Made by a program: the position numbers and the translations under genes. Below the pieces are notes generated by a model. That model did no database searches. It saw nothing but the letters and a program-made list of their open reading frames with translations, and was not told the origin of the DNA. A stretch of DNA of 64,000 bases, from the NCBI RefSeq assembly GCF_032854445.1, contig NC_088300.1, positions 15,691,570-15,755,569 of the forward strand. The letters are read 5' to 3'. This stretch comes from Liolophura sinensis. Taxonomy: Eukaryota > Mollusca > Polyplacophora > Chitonida > Chitonidae. This document shows, piece after piece, positions 40,214 to 59,858 of this stretch (the first letter of the stretch is position 1; every line of letters starts with the position of its first letter).

Positions 40214-43200
40214 GTGAAGACCGAGGTGGTGAGGGACGTGACAAGCACGATGGCCACGGACCCCGCAGACGACCCATCCGAGGCCCCCAGCATGGATATT
40301 GTGACAGTGGTGGTGCCCGTTGTTGTTGTAGCTGTTGTGCTCATTATGGCGCTGGCCATCTTCATCTACTGGTACTGCTGCAAGAGGAGGAAGGAACTGA
40401 ATAAACAGGCTATTGCAGAGGTAAAATCAAAAATTCATTGTCAGCGTGCAAGCCGTCCTTCCCCTAAATGCGACTTGTAGCTGAGTCAACTTTTATTTTG
40501 GCTTGTTTTAATTTCGAGGTTTCAAAATACTGGGTTAATCCTTCACTTATCTTGATTTTTACCTTAAAACCAATTAAGCAGCACATATAACCCTGGCAGC
40601 AGAGACTGAAGCCTTCTCCAAAATAAATCGAAAGGCTAACTATATCCATGTTCTTCTTCTCTGTTGAAGCATGCTCTATGTCGTCAGACTGTCAAAGATC
40701 ACCCCACTTCAGTGTACACTGTGGAAAAAAACTTCGTAAGTCCGATCGTCGCATTGAATGTGACATCTGAAAGGCGCCTGCGGTATTCTGGGGAACCGGC
40801 TGTTTCGTCGCTGCCAACATCCGGGCGATCAGTATCCTACGACTGCCTGGGAGATCGCGACAGGTGCCAGCCATGGCAAGGTCTTCGCAACTCCGTCGCT
40901 TCTGACAATGGCTACTATGTGCCTGATGTTCTGCACTCGTCCACATCGCAGCTGAGTCAGAGCGTGGAACCAAGACAAAGTTTCCTTCAGGATTCAGAAT
41001 CGACACCGGAGAGATCTCTGAGCAGTGACCACATAGAGGCTCGCTTCTGGCCAGGTGTCGGTCGCAGACCCGTCAGTAAAGCCTCTAGTTTAGGCAGAGA
41101 TAGTGGTCTAGGAGGCAGTCAGGAGACATGTCTATCTTATCAAACAGATCTGAAGGCGTCCTTGTCGAATTTCAGCATGTGCTCCTCAGAGGCAGAGTAT
41201 GATTTGGAATTGTACTCTGAAAGACCGAAGTCCCTGCCACCTATGTGTGGCTCTCTAGCTTCAACAGAGGTACAGAAAATCGAGCATATACCACTAAGGA
41301 GCATGTATCCCTGTCTTCCTCGTCTCGACGAGAATGACAATCAGCCAGATGTGTACAAACACATACAGTCACTTCGAGACAAGTTTTACACCTTAAGAAA
41401 CCAAGCCGGTGCCCCTCGAGACGAAGCCCCTCGTCAAATCATGGGAACGCCAAATTTCGTAATTGGAATATTTGGCACGGAAGGAGGGCATCTGCAACTC
41501 TTTGACGGTTCCGCAACGCTGGCTATTCCCCAGGACGCCCTACCCTTTGAGCAGGAGGTGTACCTGTATGCTTATTATGAGAACGCCTGCATAGATGGCA
41601 AGTCCTACCTGAGAAGAGTGATTGAATGTGGGCCTGATGGACTTGCCTTCAAGACGCCAGTGTGCCTTAGTTTTATACCTAGACTCATTCCGTGTGACGA
41701 GAATGAAAGTGAAACTGATGTGGATCTCAAAGTAGTATTCAAGAATAACGAACCAGACTCATGGCGATCTCTAAAAAAGAGTGAATCGTTTTTTCATGCG
41801 CAGCACGAATTTGTATCAATACATGTGGATCATTTCACGCGGTTTACTGTGGAACCGGCCGGCGGATCCGTCCAGCTGGCGGCCGGTGCTTCCTCTGCAC
41901 ACGTCACCAGTCCACACAATCAGCCCACGGAGTCCCGAAAGTTCTATGTGTCTGTGTACGTGGGGCAAGCCCTTAATGGCGTCAACGAGTACAGGGTGTG
42001 CTTCATAGAAAAAGATAAGGACAAGTTACAGGTAAAAAATTACTTATGTATACAACGATAGTCTGGTCTACCTCATCACCGATATACCATAGCGGATTAC
42101 TTCGTAAACATCATTGATACACTAAAACTCAAATAGGTCTCATCCTAGAATCCATTCGAAAACATTCCAAGACTTTTTCGATGGCCAAATAATGCAAACC
42201 AGGAGAAATAATATTGTCTTGTTGATATTTTTTAGGCGCACAACAAGAACATGAATCAGGAAGGGTTCCGCTCAGCAGTTGCCTCTCCCAAGGCATTCAG
42301 TTTGACGTCTGAAGGCCGTGATGTTCGCATAGAAATACCGTCTATACATGGATGTGAATTTAAAAGCTCAAATACAAAACATGTAAGTGTAGATAGTTGA
42401 GCCACCATGTTCTACAGCTCATCTTCCGTGCCTTTCCTCAGCGACACTGTAGTGTGGTCACCACACTTCGTCAACAGTGAGTATGTTCTGGTTGTGCCGT
42501 GGGAAAATTGACCTTAAGGAACTGTGCTTTCAAATCAACCTGTATATATGAAATTGGCAACTGATGTTTAGGTATAATGCACATTTTAACTTGCTGCTTC
42601 TAAAACTGGCTCATTATCAAATATTGATTTACTTATCAGCTGTTGCTAAGACCAACAGATTTGTTCTGTAGTGTACGGAGCACTAGTTTCACCTCCGGTT
42701 TTGTTGGTTTTCCAGGTGGTTCCAATTGACGAATTTGATGACCAGACAGTGGAGGACATTGGTCCTCCCTGCAGGCACTTTCTTTTGGGTTTGGCTAAAC
42801 CAAATACAGGGGGGCTCTTTGAGGTGGCTGTATTCCAGGAGAATGTTCATGACAAAGTGCTGACCTTCTGTGTCAGCATTAACCATAACGCCATCAAAGA
42901 TAAGGTAAGATCAGCTGTACTGTCCATATATAAGAATTAAGTTACTCATGTCTCCCAAGCGGTCTCACTTCTTAAAGTATCCACGTTCATACGTGAACAA
43001 ATGTAAACCCGAAGTTTTTTAAAGTGTTTAAGAAAATGTCAACGGCATAAATGCATTTATTCAACACTTTATTTTTCGTTAAATCTTTTCAGTTGTCACA
43101 TGACTCTAGAGAGTTAACCCACCAAGATGTCCTGGAGTTTTTGGCGGGAAACCGTCTGGCCAAATACGATCCGAACGTGTGTTTTCCAAAAAACATGAAA

Positions 43201-43989
43201 CTGGACATCTGTACGAAGGTGGAGGGTTTGCAGACACACGGATGGTACAAACTAGCGGAAGCGGCGCAAATACCAGGAAACAAATACAAATGGTTGGAAT
43301 CCTATGTCAGGGAGAAGCATGTAACACCTTGCTATGTGGTGTTGGACTTTATCGAAGCCAAACTGATCGCCAAAGATGTAGGCATTGGGAAAGCCTGTGA
43401 TCAGCTTACTCAAATGTTAGACAGATCTGGGTTCGAAGTAGCAGCTGATTTCTGCAAATCCTGGAAAGTTGAATTGTTAAAACAACGGAGTCATCACAAA
43501 GAAAAAGGAGGGCGAATGTCCTTTGGAAGGCGAGACGATTATGCCAATCTTTCACCAAGTCGCGAGGAACTAGGAACAATCCCAGAAGAGAGTAATACAT
43601 CTCGGACACAAACTAACACTCGCGGGGAAAATAGTCCCGCCTCACGAAGGCCATACAATATGACGCTGGAACTTCGCCAAGGGCCAAATGGTGGTGTCGG
43701 TTTACCATTGAGCACATATCACCATTTGGAGAAGCAGTTTAGTTCGGATGTTTCCCCTACGCTTCTCTTGGACAACTCTGGTATGGGACATGGAAACTCT
43801 TTACCGTCACCCAGTCAAACTCCGTTCGCCATCAGTCGTGCACACGATTCTATGCCCCAAAGCACCCGAAGGCCCAATAAAGTGCTAGTAAAGGGAAACC
43901 GCGAGAAATCCGGGCGCAACGATAGCGGGATTGGTAGTGATATAGCTTCTCCAGTGGACTCCGAGGGAGACAGGAGCAGCCATATATAA
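40214..43989 (+). CDS. Membrane-anchored ZU5-UPA-death-domain receptor, UNC5/UNC5CL-like
   Basis: Exons 40214-40420, 40670-42031, 42236-42382, 42716-42904 and 43093-43989 all join in phase 0 with GT-AG introns. A start at 40250 has a strong Kozak context (A at -3, G at +4) and gives 921 residues. Residues ~17-41 are one hydrophobic helix, with an acidic side before it and CCKRRKELNK after it, so an N-outside anchor. A Ser-rich linker follows, then ZU5 (~318-452; GGHLQLFDG, ECGPDGLAFKTPVCLSF), UPA (~478-623; FYVSVYVG, DIGPPCRHFLL), a death domain (~655-748; GWYKLAEAAQIPG) and a disordered tail. This order matches UNC5 cytoplasmic regions. The absence of an ectodomain fits UNC5CL-like proteins, which signal through the death domain. 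Upstream exons may exist: the AG before 40214 is a good acceptor, and the alternative ATG at 40145 lacks signal-peptide character. Confidence 0.87.
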
Positions 43990-47434: not shown

Positions 47435-50400
47435 ATGATACATGTAAGAAATATTTCTCTTAAGTTGTACCAACTCTTAAGCACGAGAAACCAAGATAAA
47501 TCTCAGGGAAAAGCCTGTCCCCAGATAATTGGAACTCCAGATTTTGTCACTGGAATATTTGACGCCGATGGAGGGTCATCTGCAGCGCTTTCCACAGGGC
47601 TGGGTATTCCCCCAAAATACCTTGCTCTTTGAGCAGGAAGTATACCTGTATCCTTACTACGAGAACTCTTGCAAAGGCGACAAGTCCTACCTGAGAAAAG
47701 TCACTGAATGTGGGTCAAACGGGCTTAAATTCAAGACATCAGTCTGCCTTAGTTTTATACGCACGTATACTTCATGCGACTCGAATGAAATAGATACAAA
47801 ACTCAAGGTCGTATTAAAAAATAATGATGCAGATTCATGGCGATCTCTAACACAGAACGAATCGTTTTTTTCAGTATCTGTGGATCACTTCATCCGATTT
47901 ACCGTGGAGCCGGTCGGTGGATCCGTCCAGCTGGCGGTCGAAGCGTTTTCTCGGCATGTCACCAGTTCATTCAATCAGCCCACGGAGTCCCGGAAGTTCT
48001 ATGTGTCTGTGTACGTGGGGCAAGCCCATTGTGGCGCAACCGAGTACAGGGTGTGCTTCATCGAAATATGTAACAAGTTAAAAGGTGACTCTGGAAATAT
48101 TTCTCGGTTTGCTTCGTTTATTCAATAATTCGTGGCATTCCCTTCATCAATAGCACTGAATTGATTTATCTGTATACCTAATCAGTTGTAAACGCAGTAT
48201 TTCAACAATTTAAATCCACATATACGACGGCGTGCAGATTTACGGGCGCAGGAAAGTTACCTGAGTACACGACATAAACAGCGGCCGTTTGTCAGATACC
48301 AGTCAAACTTTTTCCTAATTTTAAGTCGCACAAGTCATTGGTCAGATATTGGTCCATTTTATCCAGTCCACCGTTTTATACCAATGAGCCAGAGACGATC
48401 CATATTAAAGAAATTAAGCCAATTACCAGAGGAAAAACTTTGCACAGGATTGTGTCTCATTTTATACATTGAATGCAAATTTAGACTTTTTCAACACTGA
48501 TTCCAGGTGCGCAAAAAAAGCAGAATAAATAAAATTATGTGTTTTACATTTTTGCAGATCCTCAACAGTAACATGAAGAAGGAGTTCCATTAATCTGTAT
48601 TCTCTCTCAAGCCCTTCAGTCTGACCCCTAGGGACATGACGTTCGCATATAAATACGGCTCATGCATGGGTGCGAATGTAATAGCGCATGTACAAACAAT
48701 GTACGTGTATTCAAACAATGCATCAACCTGCTATTCAAATATCGCTACTTCTTTTTATTTAACGACACGTGTTATATCGACATATTCCTAGTAGAGAGTA
48801 CACGTTGAGAATAATTTCAAGTTTCTACGTTGTTATACATGTGCTTATGACCTTCTGTTGTGATAAGCCTAGATCTCATTCTGAACTAGATAGATGTAGG
48901 TAAGCCACACGAGCAGTTACTGCGAAACAAAAAAAATACCAAGATTTATGTAGTGAAATATATCGGCGTGATGATTAAATATCCTGTGGAGATGTAAATA
49001 CCATATATACTTTGTTTGGTGTGTTGTGTACGAGATACTTTTGCCGTTTTCTCTATTCTTTTTCCCATTCTGATCAGGTATGAAAAGCTGCAGTTTTCGG
49101 CCACACTCCCAAACTCCTCGGGGTGCAGTCCACGTCATTGCCGAATTCCACTTCCTTCACTTACGGGTTGTATGTTTTTTTTTTTCAGATCATTCCCATT
49201 GACTAATTTGACAGTCAGGCCGTGGACGACATTGGTCCGCCCCACAGGCACTTTTTTTTTTTTTCGAGTTCACCAAACCAGACGCAAGCAGGCTCTTTGA
49301 GGTCACTGTGTTCCACGAGAATGTCCATGACAAGGTCTTGACGTTTTGTGTCGGAATTAACGACAAAAATTATCGTTGATATAAAATCACTTGTTAAACG
49401 GCAAACCTTCTCTGATCACATGATCATTTCTGTCGAAATGCCCGACAAGAAAGTACAAATCACATTCTTGAGAGAACTAGGCCTACTGTAGACGAGAGTA
49501 AGATAGCACTTGCGCGCAGTTACTTGCCATTGGCGTATACATATTCGCCACAAAAATGGGGAAGCATTTAAAATAATCTCAACATGGCGGTGCGCAGTAA
49601 TCTGACAACGACCGATTGTTTCGTTTTACTTTCTTGAGCAGCTATGATCTGTTAGGAAAACTTGAACAGATAAACAAACTTTATTTTGAGCTTGTCGCAT
49701 GTGGTTAATGTCTGGTCAGGTCAAGTTAACAACGCACTAGTATAAGGAAAGGCATGACTCTTCCTGAATTGTGAAAACAAAAAGGAGCATATGTATCTTT
49801 GAGCTGATAAGTTGAGTTGAGTTGTACTTTGACCTAAGTCCGACGAAGAGCAAATAAATAAGATTAGTGGTGTTTTAGAATGTTGAGGGTGTATTTGTGT
49901 GAATACATTCTTAAACAGTTAACAGATATTTAAATATCAATGCTCACGTCACACTGTGGTTTGAACTATCGACTATTTTACTAGAATTGAAGGACAGTAC
50001 TCTATTGTACAATTTATCATGAGTACAGACAGTGAAACAGCGCCTATGCGCGGATTGAATCACATGTACAGGAGACTCAAAAGTTCTTCGTTTATCTTCT
50101 TAAAAGACAAGAAACCTTGAATTATTGCTTCCATTTTAGTCACTCTGAAGATTATTTCACTTCAATGACGGCTTGTCAGTAAAGTCATATATTTCTGTGT
50201 TTTACAGAAATAAAGCGCATTTTAAATACATTCACTTCATGTAAAATCCCCTATATGCGCAACCACACAATACACAAGTGAAATCCATTGTTAAAAATCC
50301 AGCTGCATAATATTTTTAACAATCAACCGTTTACTCTACGTTTTGTCCCTTTCCCTACCCTGTTCAAGTCGCCATTCTTGGGGAATCACGAGGACGTGAA

Positions 50401-51460
50401 AAAAGCCACCGGAAGTGAATGTAACTGGGAGAAATGGACACAGACCCCCATTACAACTTCCGTGTACGAATGTAATTCTGTGTATTTTAGGGTGTAAAGT
50501 ATTTTTTTGCTGCCAGCCTGCCGTTTTCGGTGTACAGGTGCATGCTTGGTATCAGAATGCAGGAAAATAAGCTTTGGGCAGGTATGAGTTTTACTGATGA
50601 AATGTGAAATTCTGGGCGAGAGGACACGCCTCTTGGCGTTGCAAGGCACCCCTCCCAGCTGCCGGCTTAGAAAGGTCCAGATTTTGATGGTCAACCTATG
50701 TGAAGATTTTAATGGCTTCTTTCTCACAGGCTGTGTCAGGAATGCACCAAAGCTTACTGGCCACGGAATGTTTGGGGCTGAGCTACAGCGCTAAACGTTA
50801 ACATTGTCTCTTATGGAAAATTAATGGGGGTGTGTGGCCAGCATAAGCGCTATCCATCTCCGGGATACAGGGAATATCCTTTTATAGTCTAGTGGTAGAG
50901 TCGAGGACTGAAAATCCGGAGGCCGCTGCGTCATTTCCCCATTTGGCATGTCTGGTCACAATATATCTCCGTTTCAGGTCTTAATAAAGACCTGTGTTAT
51001 ATTTTCACCCCGGGAAATTAACCCTTAAGGAGTTTTTGGCGTGAAAACGTCTAGTCACTTAGCAAACGTCTGCTTCCCCCAAAACATGAAAATGGATATA
51101 TGTACAGTGGTGGAAGACTCGCACATAGATGACTGGTACAAATTAGCTGAGGCGGCGCAAATCCCCGGGAACAAATCCAGGTGGCTAGTATCGTACGTCA
51201 GTAGAAAGCAGGCAACTCCTTGTTATGTGGTTCTGGACTTCATCGAAGTACAACTAATCGCTAAGGACGCAGGTGTTGATAAAGTCTGGTCAACTTGGAT
51301 GTTAGACAACTGTGGATTTGGAGTGGTGGCTGATGTTTGTAAATCCTGGAAAGCTTACTTGTTAAAACACCAGAGTCCTCACAAGCACAAACCAAACGGA
51401 ACAAATATCTTCACCTGTCGCCAAGATAACGCCACCAAAATAACTAATTTAGAATGTTAA
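47435..51460 (+). pseudogene. Decayed tandem copy of the ZU5-UPA-death-domain gene
   Basis: Four blocks match the neighbour in order. Exon 2 3' part is at ~47470-48070, exon 3 at ~48559-48708, exon 4 at ~49198-49380 and the death-domain exon at ~51015-51460. Lesions are many. An inserted T near 47566 shifts the ZU5 frame. Exon 3 meets an in-frame TAA at ~48591. Exon 4 has GAC-TAA just after its start, a T13 run that breaks the frame, and no donor. The death-domain exon has TGA after GAGTTTTTGGCG. The TM exon and linker are not recognisable upstream, and the Ser-rich tail is lost. Homology resumes in the 3' flank (51770-51925). A tandem segmental duplication that decayed is the simplest reading; a few lesions in homopolymers could be sequencing errors, but not all. 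Confidence 0.88.
50880..50945 (+). mobile_element. tRNA-like SINE head, relic
   Basis: ATAGTCTAGTGGTAGAGTCG and AGGACTGAAAATCCGGAGGC look like a tRNA D-arm and anticodon arm, but the B-box region is decayed (GCGTCATTTCCCC). It lies in the pseudogene's last intron. It is not a functional tRNA. Confidence 0.4.
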
Positions 51461-53335: not shown

Positions 53336-53609
53336 ATGAAATTTATTAAAATGTTCAATGACAAAGTTACAAGTGACGAAGGATCTTTACAGCTTATAAC
53401 AGTAAACTCTTCAAAATAATAGACTCCAGTATACTGTTTGTGAAGAATGCAAAATCAACTCGCAACCAACTCAGGATTCTGTCTAATCAGTTCATATGTA
53501 CCAAGTTGTATGTATGTGTTGTTCAGTAACAAGTCACCAACAGATTAACAGAAACAAGGTCACAGTTACAAGTTATCAGTGTCCTTCGCCAAGTACCACT
53601 GGATGTTTC

Positions 53610-56600
53610 TCAACCTTTCCCAACTGTGACTGCATCCATGGACTCTGTGTCGTCATCATCAAAGTACCTCTCCTCTTCATCCTGCTCACGTATCTTCAGA
53701 GAATCATAGTCAGTGTTACCGTCCACCGTACTGCAAAACAGAATCACAGTCAACGTTACCATCCACCGTACTGCAAAACAGAATCACAGTCAACGTTACC
53801 ATCCACCGAAAAATAGAATCATATTTAGTGTTACCGTCCACAGTACTGCAAAATAGAATCATAGTCAACGTTACCGTCCACAGTACTGCAAAACAGAATC
53901 ATAGTTAGTGTTACCGTCCACAGTACTGCAAAATAGAATCATAGTCAGTCTTACCGTCCACAGTACTGCAAAACAGAATCATAGTCAGTGTTACCGTCCA
54001 CAGTATTGCAAAATAGAATCATAGTCAGTGTTACCGTCCACAGTACTGCAAAATAGAATCAGTCAGTGTTACCGTCCACAGTACTGCAAAACAGAATCAT
54101 AGTCAGTGTTACCGTCCACAGTATTGCAAAATAGAATCATAGTCAGTGTTACCATTTACAATACTGCAAAACAGAAACATAGTCAGTGTTACCATCCACA
54201 ATACTGCAAAAACAGAATCATAGTCAGTGTTACCATCCACAGTACTGCAAAACAGAATCATAGTCAGTGTTACCGTCCACAGTATTGCAAAATAGAATCA
54301 CAGTCAGTGTTACCATCCACAGTACTGCAAAACAGAATCATAGTCAGTGTTACCGTCCACAGTATTGCAAAATAGAATCATAGTCAGTGTTACCATCCAC
54401 AATACTGCAAAACAGAATCATAGTCAGTGTTACCATCCACAATACTGCAAAACAGAAACATAGTCAGTGTTACCATCCACAATACTGCAAAACAGAATCA
54501 TAGTCACAATTAACTTCCACAATATTGCAGAATAGAATGACAGGATACCATCCACAGTACTGCTAAATAGAATCATAGTCAGTGTTACCGTCCACAGTAC
54601 TGCAAAACAGAATCATAGTCAATGTTACCGTCCACAGTATTGCAAAATAGAATCAGTCAGTGTTACCATCCACAGTACTGCAAAATAGAATCATGGTCAG
54701 TGTTACTGTCCACAGTACTGCAAAACAGAATCATAGTCAGTGTTACCGTCCACAGTATTGCAAAATAGAATCATAGTCAGTGTTACCATCCACAATACTG
54801 CAAAACAGAAACATAGTCGGTGTTACCATCCACAATACTGCAAAACAGAATCATAGTCAGTGTTACCATCCACAATACTGCAAAACAGAAACATAGTCAG
54901 TGTTACCATCCACAATACTGCAAAAGAGGATCATAGTCACAATTAACTTCCACAATACTGCAGAATAGAATGACAGGATACTGTCCCCCATGCTGCAAAA
55001 CAGAATCACAGTCAGTGTTACCATCCATGTACTGCAAAATAGAATCATAGTCAGTGTTACCATCCACAATACTGCAAAACAGAATCATAGTCACAGTTAA
55101 CTTCCACAATACTGCAGAATAGAATGACAGGATACTGTCCACCGTACTGCAAAATAGAATCATAGTCAGTGTTACTGTCCACAGTACTGCAAAACAGAAT
55201 CATAGTGTTACCATCCATGTACTGCAAAATAGAATCATAGTCAGTGTTACTGTCCACAGTACTGCAAAATAGAATCATAGTGTTACCGTCCATGTACTGC
55301 AAAATAGAATCATAGTCAGTGTTACCATCCACAATACTGCAAAACAGAATCATAGTCACAGTTAACTTTCACAATACTGCAGAACAGAATGACAGGACAT
55401 TATTGACATTATTGCAAAACAGAATGACATCATCCACAGTACTGCAAAATAGAGCGACACATCCAGTGTTACAGTCCACAGTATTGCAAAGTAGAATCAT
55501 AGTCATTGTTAACTTCTACAGTACTGCAATATAGAGTGACAGGACACCGTCAACAGTACTGCAAAATAGTATGACATATCCAGTGTTAACGTAGACTGTA
55601 TTGCAAAATAAAAAGACATACTCATTGTTACCGTTCACAGAAATGCAAAATATAATCATAGTCACAGTTAATGGCAGTCAAGTTTGTGGGTGGAAACCAT
55701 AGAGCCTATAGTATACTACTGCCCTCTGAAATATACAATGGACCTTATTATGAGACCATCTGACTCCTCAGCTATGGCATCAAGAGCTTAATTCGAACAC
55801 ACTACATGTAACCCACTACTAACTGTCAAACTGTCTATCCTGTCCACTGATGAACCTCTCCTGTACTTACGTTGCTTATTAAAATACCTCAGACAACGCC
55901 TACATGCAACCTACCAGCACTCAAACTGTCTATCCTGTCCACTAATGAACCTCTCCTGTACTCAAGGTGTTTCTCAGAATACATCAGACAACACCTACAA
56001 CACACACCTGTAGTCAACCCGTCTACCCTGTCCACTGAGCCTCTCCTGTACTTAAGGTGTTTCTCAAAATATCTCAGACAACACCTAATGTAACCCCACT
56101 GTACTCAAACTGTTTATCTTTGTCCACTTATGAACCTCTCCTGTACCTAAGGTGTTTCTCAGAACACCTCTGACAACACCTGCATGTGCCCCTACCTGTA
56201 GTCAAACTGTTTATCCTGGCCACTAATTAACCTTTCCTGAACTCAAGATATTTCTCACAATACATCAGACAACACCTACATGCAACCCACCTGTAGTCAA
56301 ACTGTCTATCCTGTCCACTGATGAACCTCTCCTGCATAATGTGCAGAAACTCTTCTCTAAGCAACCGTTTTTCATCTGCAGAAATCTGCGGCTGATCACC
56401 TCCTTCATTTTCTGGGAAAAAAAAAATCAATTTAAAGGGAAGGATGAAAAAGAAGTTAATCAAACCAAAGAACTTATTCCATTAAGTCAGTGTTGTTAAT
56501 AAACTGAAATACATGTAAGGATATCAAGAATCAGAAACAGTTATCAAAAGGTTAGATTTACTTCTTTAGATCTTATCTTACCTTATGTTTTTTTTTCTGA

Positions 56601-59600
56601 CAGACTGATCACCACATTACATTAAGAAATAATTAAACGAACATTACAACTTCTATCTGTTTGCAGCAGTAAAACTAGAAGCGGACTGCTGTCAAAGTAA
56701 CTTCAATAATGCAGTATCAAACATGTCTTTTAATCGTGAATGATTTGTTTGGCCACGGGATCTGCCATGGTTAATGGAACATGCAAATAAAACGAACAGG
56801 CAAAACAAGGTTCATGTAAGGTCAGTGGAACCAGCTGCTGTCTCAGGTTTACAGAGGAGTAACTTACACCTGATTTTTTAAGAAATTGATGACATTACAG
56901 CATTTTTGATTTTCTCAAAGTGCACAAGTTTGCTCTCTTTGAACTGTGATATCTAAGTTATGGAACATGAGGAAAATAAAAAGGTTCACTTTTTAAACTT
57001 TACATTGTATGTGGTATATTTCATTGGTGCATATATGCATTTGGTCTACTGTTTCTTTTGGTTTTAATGGACTCAAACCAGTAAAGAAGATGGGGACTAA
57101 AGGACTCAAACCAATAAAGCAGATAGAGACGGAGAGACTCAAACCAGTAAAGAAGATGGGGACTAAAGGACTCAAACCAGTAAAGCAGATAGAGACAGAG
57201 AGACTCAAACCAGTAAAGCAAATGGGGACTAAAGGACTCAAACCAGTAAAGCAAATAAGGACTGAGAAATTCCAGTCAGTAAAGAAGATGAGGACTGAGA
57301 GTCTCACACCAGTTACCAAATATGGGATGAGAGACTCAAACCAGTAAAGCAAATAAGGACTGAGAAAATCCAGTCAGTAAAGAAGATGGGGACTGAGAGT
57401 CTCACACCAGTTACCAAATACGGGATGAGCGACTCAAACCAGTAAAGCAAATAAGGACTGAGAAAATCCAGTCAGTAAAGAAGGTGGGGACTGAGAGTCT
57501 CACACCAGTTACCAAATACGGGATGAGAGACTCAAACCAGTAAAGCAAATAAGGACTGAGAAAATCCAGTCAGTAATGAAGATGGGGACAGAGAGTCTCA
57601 CACCAGTTACCAAATACGGGATGAGCGACTCAAACCAGTAAAGCAAATAAGGACTGAGAAAATCCAGTCAGTAATGAAGATGGGGACTGAGAGTCTCACA
57701 CCAGTTACCAAATATGGGATGAGCGACTCAAACCAGTAAAGCAAATAAGGACTGAGAAAATCCAGTCAGTAATGAAGATGGGGACTGAGAGTCTCACACC
57801 AGTTACCAAAAACGGGATGAGCGACTCAAACCAGTAAAGCAAATAAGGACTGAGAAAATCCAGTCAGTAATGAAGATGGGGACTGAGAGTCTCACACCAG
57901 TTACCAAATACGGGATGAGCGACTCAAACCAGTAAAGCAAATAAGGACTGAGAAAATCCAGTCAGTAAAGAAGATGGGGACTGAGAGTCTCACACCAGTT
58001 ACCAAATACAGGATGAGCGACTGAAACCAGTAAAGCAAATAAGGACTGAGAAAATCTAGTCAGTAAAGAAGGTGGGGACTGAGAGTCTCACACCAGTTAC
58101 CAAATACGGGATGAGCAACTCAAACCAGTAAAGCAAATAAGGACTGAGAAAATCCAGTCAGTAATGAAGATGGGGACTGAGAGTCTCACACCAGTTACCA
58201 AATATGGGATGAGAGACTCAAACCAGTAAAGCAAATAAGGACTGAGAAAATCCAGTCAGTAATGAAGATGGGGACTGAGAGTCTCACACCAGTTACCAAA
58301 TACGGGATAAGTGACTCAAACCAGTAAAGCAAATAAGGACTGAGAAAATCCAGTCAGTAAAGAAGACGGGGACTGAGAGTCTCACACCAGTTACCAAATA
58401 CGGGATAAGTGACTCAAACCAGTAAAGCAAATAAGGACTGAGAAAATCCAGTCAGTAAAGAAAATGGGGACTGAGAGTCTCAAACCTGTAAGCAGATGAG
58501 GACTGAGAGAATCAAACCAGTAAAGCAGATAAGGACGGTGAGACTCAAACAAGTTACCAGTTTAGGACGACGAGACTCAAACTAATAAGCAGATGAAGAC
58601 AGAGAGACTCCAACCACCTGAGAGATTCATCAATTGAGCAAGTGTGGTAAGAGAAACTTACCTGCCTGTGTACAGTCGTCCTGGCGCATCCCCTCCTCCA
58701 CACCCTCATCTTCTTCATCACTGTCTGATTCCTCCTCCTCCTCCTCTTGACCCTCCTGTCAAAACACAACTTGTTTAATCAAAAGCAACATGCCAACGCA
58801 TGTTATCATTCCAGTAACTTCAATGAAAAGGATTAAGAAAAAACTGCAAAATGTTCTGGTCATCATAGAGGATTTAAGTCTGCTTAGAGGATTTATAGGA
58901 AAAGATCTCTAAAAATCAAAACAGGCATCACAGGAAGTTTATCCAACTCTAATCGCAACACTGAATGTTGGAATAACTCTTTTTACCCATGAATAAAAGA
59001 TTACTGAAATAATGTTTCCAAAATTCCTTCTTTCTGGTGAACATTAGAAAAAATAGTGATGTGATGTGATGTCAGAGGTCCTAGATACCATCAGTATGGC
59101 TCATAAAGCCCACCACAGTATTCACATATTTGAATGCCTTTAAAAAAACCTGGAAAAATATATGAAATCATTTTCACGCATAGTTTCAATATGATGAATC
59201 TTACTTCATATTTAGAGGATTTCACTCTAGTAAGAGAATTTAACTCTAATTAAAAAAATCTTACCTCCATATCCCGCAAGTTCCTATATAATTGGTTTTC
59301 TTCTTGTTGAGACAAATGTTTCATCAGAATATTAGAAAAGCTTAGATCTGATTTGTCAATTTCAGCCTGTCTTTCCTGTTCAGTCAAATGCTGCCCTATC
59401 ATCTGTTCATACAAATATGGATCCCTCCACTTCATTTCTGCATCACTGAAATATTCACCACATTCCACCATGCTCTTCATTGCCTGAAAACGACGATTTT
59501 TGACAGTCAATTTGTTTTTAGTTGAATTTAGCCTGTCTGAAATTTGTGTCAAATAGAAATCAATTTCATAGTTTCCTTTCAGAGGACTGAAGTATTCCAA

Positions 59601-59858
59601 GTCTTCACCCACAAGGAATTTGCAGTATCTTGACAGGAAGGTCACAGGGTTTTTCTCCAATATTGCTGAAGCAATACTTGACTTTTCCTCCAATGTTAGC
59701 TCAGGATCTCCTCTCTGCTGATGTTTAAAGTGTGCATCCGTCTGGCACAGCCTTTCCAGCATTTGTTCACGCACCTCAATCCTCTGTAATTCACTAGAAA
59801 CAGCTGCCATGGAAACAGACTCTTTTTCCAAGTTATCATCACTGTCTGCTCCTGCCAT
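53610..59858 (-). CDS. CCDC97: CCDC97, coiled-coil domain-containing protein 97
   Basis: Four coding exons on the minus strand, 59858-59265, 58755-58662, 56411-56291 and 53730-53610, join in matching phases (0, 1, 2) to give 309 residues. Exon 1 carries the conserved core, including NRRFQAMKSMVECGEYFSDA then LYEQMIGQHLTEQE. Exon 2 is an acidic Glu/Asp stretch. Exon 3 has LLREEFLHIMQERFISGQD and QFDY. Exon 4 has STVDGNTDYDS, then DEEERYFDDDD, and a short tail. Motif order and junction match my memory of vertebrate CCDC97 (about 340 residues). The protein is nuclear; proteomic links to the SF3B/U2 snRNP have been reported but I cannot check them here. An AG acceptor at 59873-59874 just before the ATG implies a non-coding first exon. 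Introns 2 and 3 are filled by minisatellites. Confidence 0.93.
53733..55670 (-). repeat. 40-bp minisatellite of duplicated 3' splice junction, CCDC97 intron 3
   Basis: On the minus strand the unit is TATGATTCTGTTTTGCAGTA then CTGTGGACGGTAACACTGAC. It equals the last ~10 bases of intron 3 plus the first ~30 bases of exon 4, which encode TVDGNTDYDS. About 45-50 copies run head to tail up to the functional acceptor at 53731-53732. Most keep TTTTGCAG, so most keep an acceptor AG. The first copies next to the true exon share its TACGGTGG variant, while the bulk read TACTGTGG. Copies near 55400-55670 are the most degraded. Confidence 0.95.
55800..56335 (-). repeat. ~95-bp tandem repeat of duplicated 5' splice junction, CCDC97 exon 3/intron 3
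   Basis: Six copies (one functional, five intronic) are centred on junctions near 56291, 56196, 56099, 56008, 55916 and 55821. Each holds the last ~45 bases of exon 3 (GAGAGGTTCATCAGTGGACA, GATAGACAGTTTGACTACAG) plus ~50 bases of intron. Donor sequences after the junction are GTGGGT (true), GTAGGG, a shifted GTGGGG, GTGTGT, GTAGGT and GTAGTG. Confidence 0.9.
57060..58600. repeat. Higher-order minisatellite (98 bp made of three ~32-bp subunits), CCDC97 intron 2
   Basis: A ~30-32-bp subunit (GGACTAAAGGACTCAAACCA, GTAAAGCAGATA) is simple at 57065-57260. From ~57290 to 58480 it becomes a 98-bp trimer with GTCTCACACCAGTTACCAAA, TACGGGATGAGCGACTCAAA, CCAGTAAAGCAAATAAGGAC and TGAGAAAATCCAGTCAGTAA; about 12 units. 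Degraded subunits extend to ~58600, near the exon 2 donor. Unlike intron 3, no exon sequence is included. Open frames across it are by-products. Confidence 0.95.

Follow-up and report, generated by a model that had tools for sequence, protein, structure and literature searches.

Tandem copies of its own borders fill most of intron 3 of CCDC97 in a chiton

How does a gene find the correct 3' splice site when the intron before its last exon is filled with copies of that site, and how could such an intron have come about? This question is raised by a gene on the minus strand of a window of 64,000 nucleotides from Liolophura sinensis (contig NC_088300.1; all positions below are those of the window). 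The genome paper initially called the species L. japonica, a name that was changed in a correction. A preliminary description of the window claimed that the gene is CCDC97, that its intron 3 is built from some 45-50 tandem copies of the intron's own acceptor plus the start of exon 4, and that only the last copy yields the complete protein. Each of these claims was examined along with possible explanations of how the intron arose and how it is tolerated.

Two boundary-spanning arrays in intron 3

The identity of the gene was confirmed by the gene model and by a match of its 309-aa product to Pfam PF09747 (E 3.6e-44). The model contains four coding exons, all on the minus strand: exon 1 (coding part from the ATG, 59265..59858), exon 2 (58662..58755), exon 3 (56291..56411), and exon 4 (coding part, 53610..53730), the last also supported by an alignment of homologues. 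Introns 1, 2, and 3 measure 509, 2,250, and 2,560 bp. Exon 3 ends with TTTGACTACAG at the donor GTGGGT. The authentic exon 3-4 acceptor was located by protein homology across the junction and by the gene model; its AG ends at 53731 and exon 4 begins at 53730. Together with the preceding unit and the exonic last copy, it occupies 53691..53770 (minus strand). The sole AATAAA between 53640 and 52900, at 53342..53347 on the minus strand, is the likely poly(A) signal.

The 3' end of intron 3 is a tandem array at 53731..55652 (minus strand), as defined by TRF, by splitting the sequence at its acceptors, and by BLAST. TRF reported a period of 40 with 43.1 copies at 53700-55390, and overlapping or adjoining rows extend the array to 55652. 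Acceptor splitting, for which the pattern was adjusted by eye to retain diverged units, gave 50 units, 49 of them upstream and the last being exon 4 itself, with exon-side starts running from 55640 to 53730. The unit length is mostly 40 bp, with others of 30-42 bp; units of the array within the intron range from 35 to 42 bp. The number of copies first proposed is confirmed. Each unit consists of the 3' splice site (TTCTRTTTTGCAG) and a copy of exon 4 bases 1-31. This composition, also anticipated by the preliminary description, was recovered by BLAST of exons against introns: the start of exon 4 matched intron 3 in 37 pieces of 20-31 bases each at 84-100% identity, whereas 200 first-order Markov randomizations of this intron together yielded 1 match to any exon. 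When the units were aligned with exon 4, the exon differed from the unit consensus by 1 base over 31.

An AG is present in 38 of the 50 units, the real acceptor included, and was lost in the other 12. The intron thus carries 37 AG-bearing upstream copies, so dozens of acceptor-like copies do exist, but not every unit is one. Divergence is greatest in the units at the upstream edge, and the units next to exon 4 have variants of their own; identity hardly drops with distance. We also observed that CAGTACTG, a perfect palindrome, crosses the junction in many decoy copies, while the last two acceptors read CAGTACGG.

The opposite end of intron 3 holds another array, which the preliminary description omitted. 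A 95-bp unit containing the end of exon 3 and the donor is repeated 5.4 times at 55825..56334 (minus strand; TRF and BLAST). Exon 3, which extends to 56291, is the first copy, and five further copies are intronic. Accordingly, BLAST found exon 3 bases 78-121 (~44 bases) five more times in intron 3. The GT at the donor position is kept in three of the five intronic copies, and these three score 8.9, 9.4, and 8.1, compared to 9.7 for the real donor, on a rough splice matrix built on general metazoan rather than chiton frequencies. Between the two arrays lies a mostly unique remainder (55653..55824, minus strand) that was delimited by eye and has no TRF row; its last ~30 bases resemble, by eye, a decayed unit. 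By the TRF intervals, arrays bearing the intron's own borders make up ~93% of intron 3 (466 + 1,922 of 2,560 bp). Similarity between an exon and an intron was found by BLAST in 2 of the 12 CCDC97 pairs, namely exon 3 with intron 3 and exon 4 with intron 3.

Arrays of this kind are known. Tandem repeats spanning an exon-intron boundary have been described as "mirages" in the Adh3 and globin genes of amphioxus, at both 5' and 3' boundaries (PMC3087553), and troponin C and PGBD5 have been added as amphioxus mirage genes (PMC3902484). The preliminary statement that no case this extreme is described is therefore not supported as far as the kind of array goes. The chiton arrays have the same hallmarks: both are tandem repeats of minisatellite size (periods 40 and 95), the unit of each spans a boundary and holds exon as well as intron sequence, and many but not all units keep the AG (38/50) or GT (3/5). 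In the available text of the two papers, the amphioxus mirages (BflGb6, BflGb9, and Adh3, with troponin C and PGBD5 cited) likewise span one exon-intron boundary, either 3' or 5', and likewise contain many AG- or GT-bearing units of which the outermost copy is the working exon edge. Their units measure 10-160 bp and show patchy homogenisation. The differences are in scale, placement, and phylum. BflGb6 has 6 and 3 units in two haplotypes, whereas the chiton 3' array has about 50. The two amphioxus globins are described with a single such boundary per gene, whereas in chiton CCDC97 both ends of one intron are affected and the intron is ~93% filled. Finally, amphioxus are lancelets and the CCDC97 arrays belong to a mollusc.

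Consequences of an upstream acceptor and the marking of the true one

We translated from exon 3 into every upstream copy that keeps an AG; none of these 37 readings reached the C-terminus DEEERYFDDDD. Twenty of them terminate 18 residues past exon 3 and the longest continues for 93 residues. The quick stop that had been predicted is therefore the commonest outcome, but other readings run on considerably further. The predicted loss of the conserved C-terminus, in contrast, holds for every AG-bearing copy. Residues Y292, F293, D294, E289, and D287 are nearly invariant when the window's protein is aligned with the catalogued Liolophura protein P0001 and 23 other homologues picked from 81 matches. 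A functional protein therefore needs the last copy; the reading frames and the homologues both support the earlier view that this copy alone gives the conserved C-terminus. A stop codon without a downstream exon junction is not expected to trigger the classical form of junction-dependent decay. Since exon 4 is the last exon, no junction would follow the early stops, and decay of that kind is not expected for such transcripts.

We looked for a feature that would mark the true acceptor. On the same matrix, with its non-chiton frequencies, the real acceptor has a score of 8.8, which is equaled or exceeded by 21 of the 37 decoys; a stronger true site was thus rejected. The branch-like motif is TTGAC at the real acceptor versus CTGAC in 20 of the 37 decoys. 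The CAGTACTG palindrome, which lies over most decoy junctions and is broken at the real one, prompted the idea that RNA structure hides the decoys while leaving the true site open, and gave it no support. This idea was rejected using RNAplfold: among 39 acceptor-like sites, 1 of them outside the array, the real AG ranked 16 or 12 and the real branch region 38 or 34. Because its strength, branch-like motif, and predicted accessibility are all unremarkable, preferential use of the real site is not explained by the acceptor itself.

The difference lies downstream. A 30-nt window of exon 4 starting at 53697 (34-63 bases into the exon) contains 6 GAR triplets, compared to a maximum of 2 in the array, whose units lack this stretch. 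Among the minus-strand windows sampled from the 64 kb, 0.04% reach six such triplets. Purine-rich stretches of the GAR type are typical of exonic enhancers. The GA-rich stretch may also reflect only the conserved acidic codons of exon 4. Since the real acceptor is not marked by its own sequence and the difference is downstream, we infer that it is chosen through an exon enhancer together with definition of the terminal exon.

Origin of the arrays and alternative explanations

If the array acceptors served a purpose, their splice signals should be constrained. We did not detect such selection by column variability in this one genome: across the 49 upstream units, the mean variability of the branch-like, polypyrimidine, and CAG columns was 0.084 versus 0.104 for the other columns (permutation p 0.32), so the splice columns are as variable as the rest. 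An excess of variation at third codon positions was looked for in the array units and not found, and therefore coding constraint in the array is not indicated. Counted by parsimony, the acceptor losses amount to 3 changes, but the underlying tree of 40 columns is too weak to be relied upon. Unconstrained splice columns and the lack of a codon-position pattern favor passive expansion, as judged from one genome.

The most probable explanation, in our view, is that the arrays are neutral mirage minisatellites at both ends of intron 3 and that the true acceptor is favored by exon 4 itself. The 3' array would go back to ~40 bp duplicated in tandem where intron 3 meets exon 4, and the 5' array to a duplication of ~95 bp where exon 3 meets intron 3. 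Both could then have been enlarged within the intron by unequal exchange or slippage, to ~93% of its length. The outermost copy of each array would stay the working exon edge, maintained by selection on the protein, and the inner copies would be passengers that happen to carry acceptor or donor signals. A functional mRNA would require the last acceptor, which may be favored by the purine-rich, enhancer-like stretch 34-63 bases into exon 4 and by the shortness of a terminal exon that ends at the nearby poly(A) signal. Some use of upstream copies would lead to truncated protein.

A truncated protein has in fact been catalogued. The best database match of the CCDC97 product was the L. sinensis protein P0001, which is identical over 87% of the query. 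It is labeled "isoform X2", is 270 aa long, and ends with FDYR directly after exon 3, without the conserved C-terminus. P0001 was the only catalogued Liolophura CCDC97 protein found, and its cluster holds 4 member sequences. When the 92-aa peptide of exons 2-4 was used to look for RNA-derived proteins, no candidate match came up. The X2 isoform may be a sign that mis-splicing does occur, and not only rarely. Between 56290 and 40000 there are 30 AG sites that would give the FDYR-stop ending, two of which, at 56195 and 56117, are in intron 3. The first is an AG/GTAG junction in the second 95-bp unit (56195..56196, minus strand), where a possible splice would produce the FDYR-stop of X2. The isoform could be explained by a 95-nt splice at the array, by a distant exon, or by an allele with one unit fewer.

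The first of these would make X2 the product of a real splice from the exon 3 donor to 56195, and the array would be a newborn intron or a point of re-splicing, comparable to intron gain through tandem duplication. We regard this as possible but rather unlikely. The site is among just 30 with the required ending in the 16 kb downstream, the excised segment would be GT...AG, and the junction would restore a donor (8.9 on the matrix). However, the pyrimidine tract at 56195 is poor (6 of 13), a more distant exon could equally provide the ending, and an isoform X1 is not among the catalogued proteins found. In addition, if an allele were shorter by one 95-bp unit, its unspliced RNA would pass for RNA from which 95 nt had been spliced. 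Such mimicry could occur because, according to the available portion of the genome paper, the RNA was taken from another individual.

A second possibility is that the arrays are a splicing device, in which the copies hold U2 and U1 in unproductive complexes, delay or divert removal of the last intron, and thereby set the level of full-length CCDC97. Intron 3 does have 22 acceptors scoring at least 8.75, the real one included, compared to a mean of 1.3 and a maximum of 6 in Markov sequences. The catalogued truncated isoform and the 21 of 37 decoys at least as strong as the real site also fit such a device. CCDC97 is a putative partner of the SF3B branch-site complex, so the device could act as autoregulation. 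However, a literature search for a link between CCDC97 and SF3B or the spliceosome found papers that mention CCDC97 and none that were functional, and a search of solved structures for the SF3B link gave no match. The array splice signals lack constraint, and the known mirages, in the available text of both papers, are said not to interfere with regular splicing (PMC3087553, PMC3902484). We consider this device quite improbable. Its most elaborate form is highly doubtful: a decoy field made of dozens of branch-site/acceptor copies and a few donor copies would titrate the splicing machinery, the rate of last-acceptor use would report branch-site recognition and set CCDC97 output through intron retention or truncated isoforms such as X2, and array length would be a heritable dial.

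Two further explanations were considered. An assembler that expanded or scrambled the arrays is very hard to credit: tandem arrays are generally error-prone, but the HiFi reads given in the available portion of the genome paper average 8,347 bp (14x), exceeding both arrays combined, and many substitutions distinguish the units from each other. It is likewise scarcely believable that the array is removed stepwise through micro-exons, using the donor-like GTAAC that each unit carries 11 bases in; the 3' array does hold 33 donors scoring at least 4.8 versus a Markov mean of 11, and a potato RdRp donor, in the available text, derives from the exonic part of a comparable duplication (PMC4974935), but such sites make weak donors (mostly 4.8-5.1 where present), the same motif also occurs in exon 4, the acceptor that follows each array donor is only ~29 nt away, and 11-nt inserts would disrupt the frame.

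Relation to known systems and other features of the window

The boundary arrays of intron 3 also find partial parallels outside amphioxus, as described in the available parts of the respective papers. The minisatellite of human IFI6 (G1P3, 6-16; Turri 1995) likewise supplies several splice-site copies at an exon edge, but these are donors rather than acceptors, its repeat units serve as alternative donors, and few sites are used (PMC4526556). Expansion of boundary minisatellites in human segmental-duplication genes likewise alters intron structure and splicing; those repeats average 30-bp units in four copies, belong to recent paralogues, and have produced novel introns supported by RNA (PMC2812944). 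In the potato RdRp gene, a duplicated segment likewise crosses the 3' end of an intron and the start of an exon, with branch site, tract, and acceptor (PMC4974935). There, one duplication gave a new working intron, whereas the chiton arrays offer only the 95-nt candidate.

Our searches of the open-licence literature found no mirage from a mollusc, no intron with mirages at its two ends, and no array approaching fifty copies. As far as that literature shows, CCDC97 intron 3 is an extreme form of mirage, combining a mollusc host, both intron ends, and about fifty copies, and the phenomenon reaches from lancelets to a mollusc. This suggests that minisatellites at exon borders contribute more widely to the growth of introns and to the origin of new splice sites. 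The locus is also a natural competition experiment: 37 upstream acceptor copies, many of them near-identical over 40 bases, face one donor, and the full protein comes from the last acceptor only. Because so many copies compete for one donor, RNA reads could measure directly how the spliceosome picks among like acceptors. The candidate determinants of that choice are proximity, exon enhancers, and terminal-exon definition.

A tandem array (98 bp repeated 14.9 times at 57070-58616 by TRF) likewise takes up most of intron 2 of CCDC97. It was rejected as a mirage since BLAST found no similarity between the 98-bp array and the flanking exons. This intron has 3 strong acceptors (at least 7.7), fewer than the Markov mean of 9.1, and 29 weak donor-like sites, above the Markov mean of 7.5. 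Elsewhere in the window, a gene with a ZU5 domain (Pfam ZU5, E 7.6e-8) lies at 40640-43989, and another stretch that partly resembles it follows at 47529-51460. The two are 65% identical over 175 aa and 59% identical over 134 aa, and the second stretch is possibly a decayed tandem duplicate of the gene.
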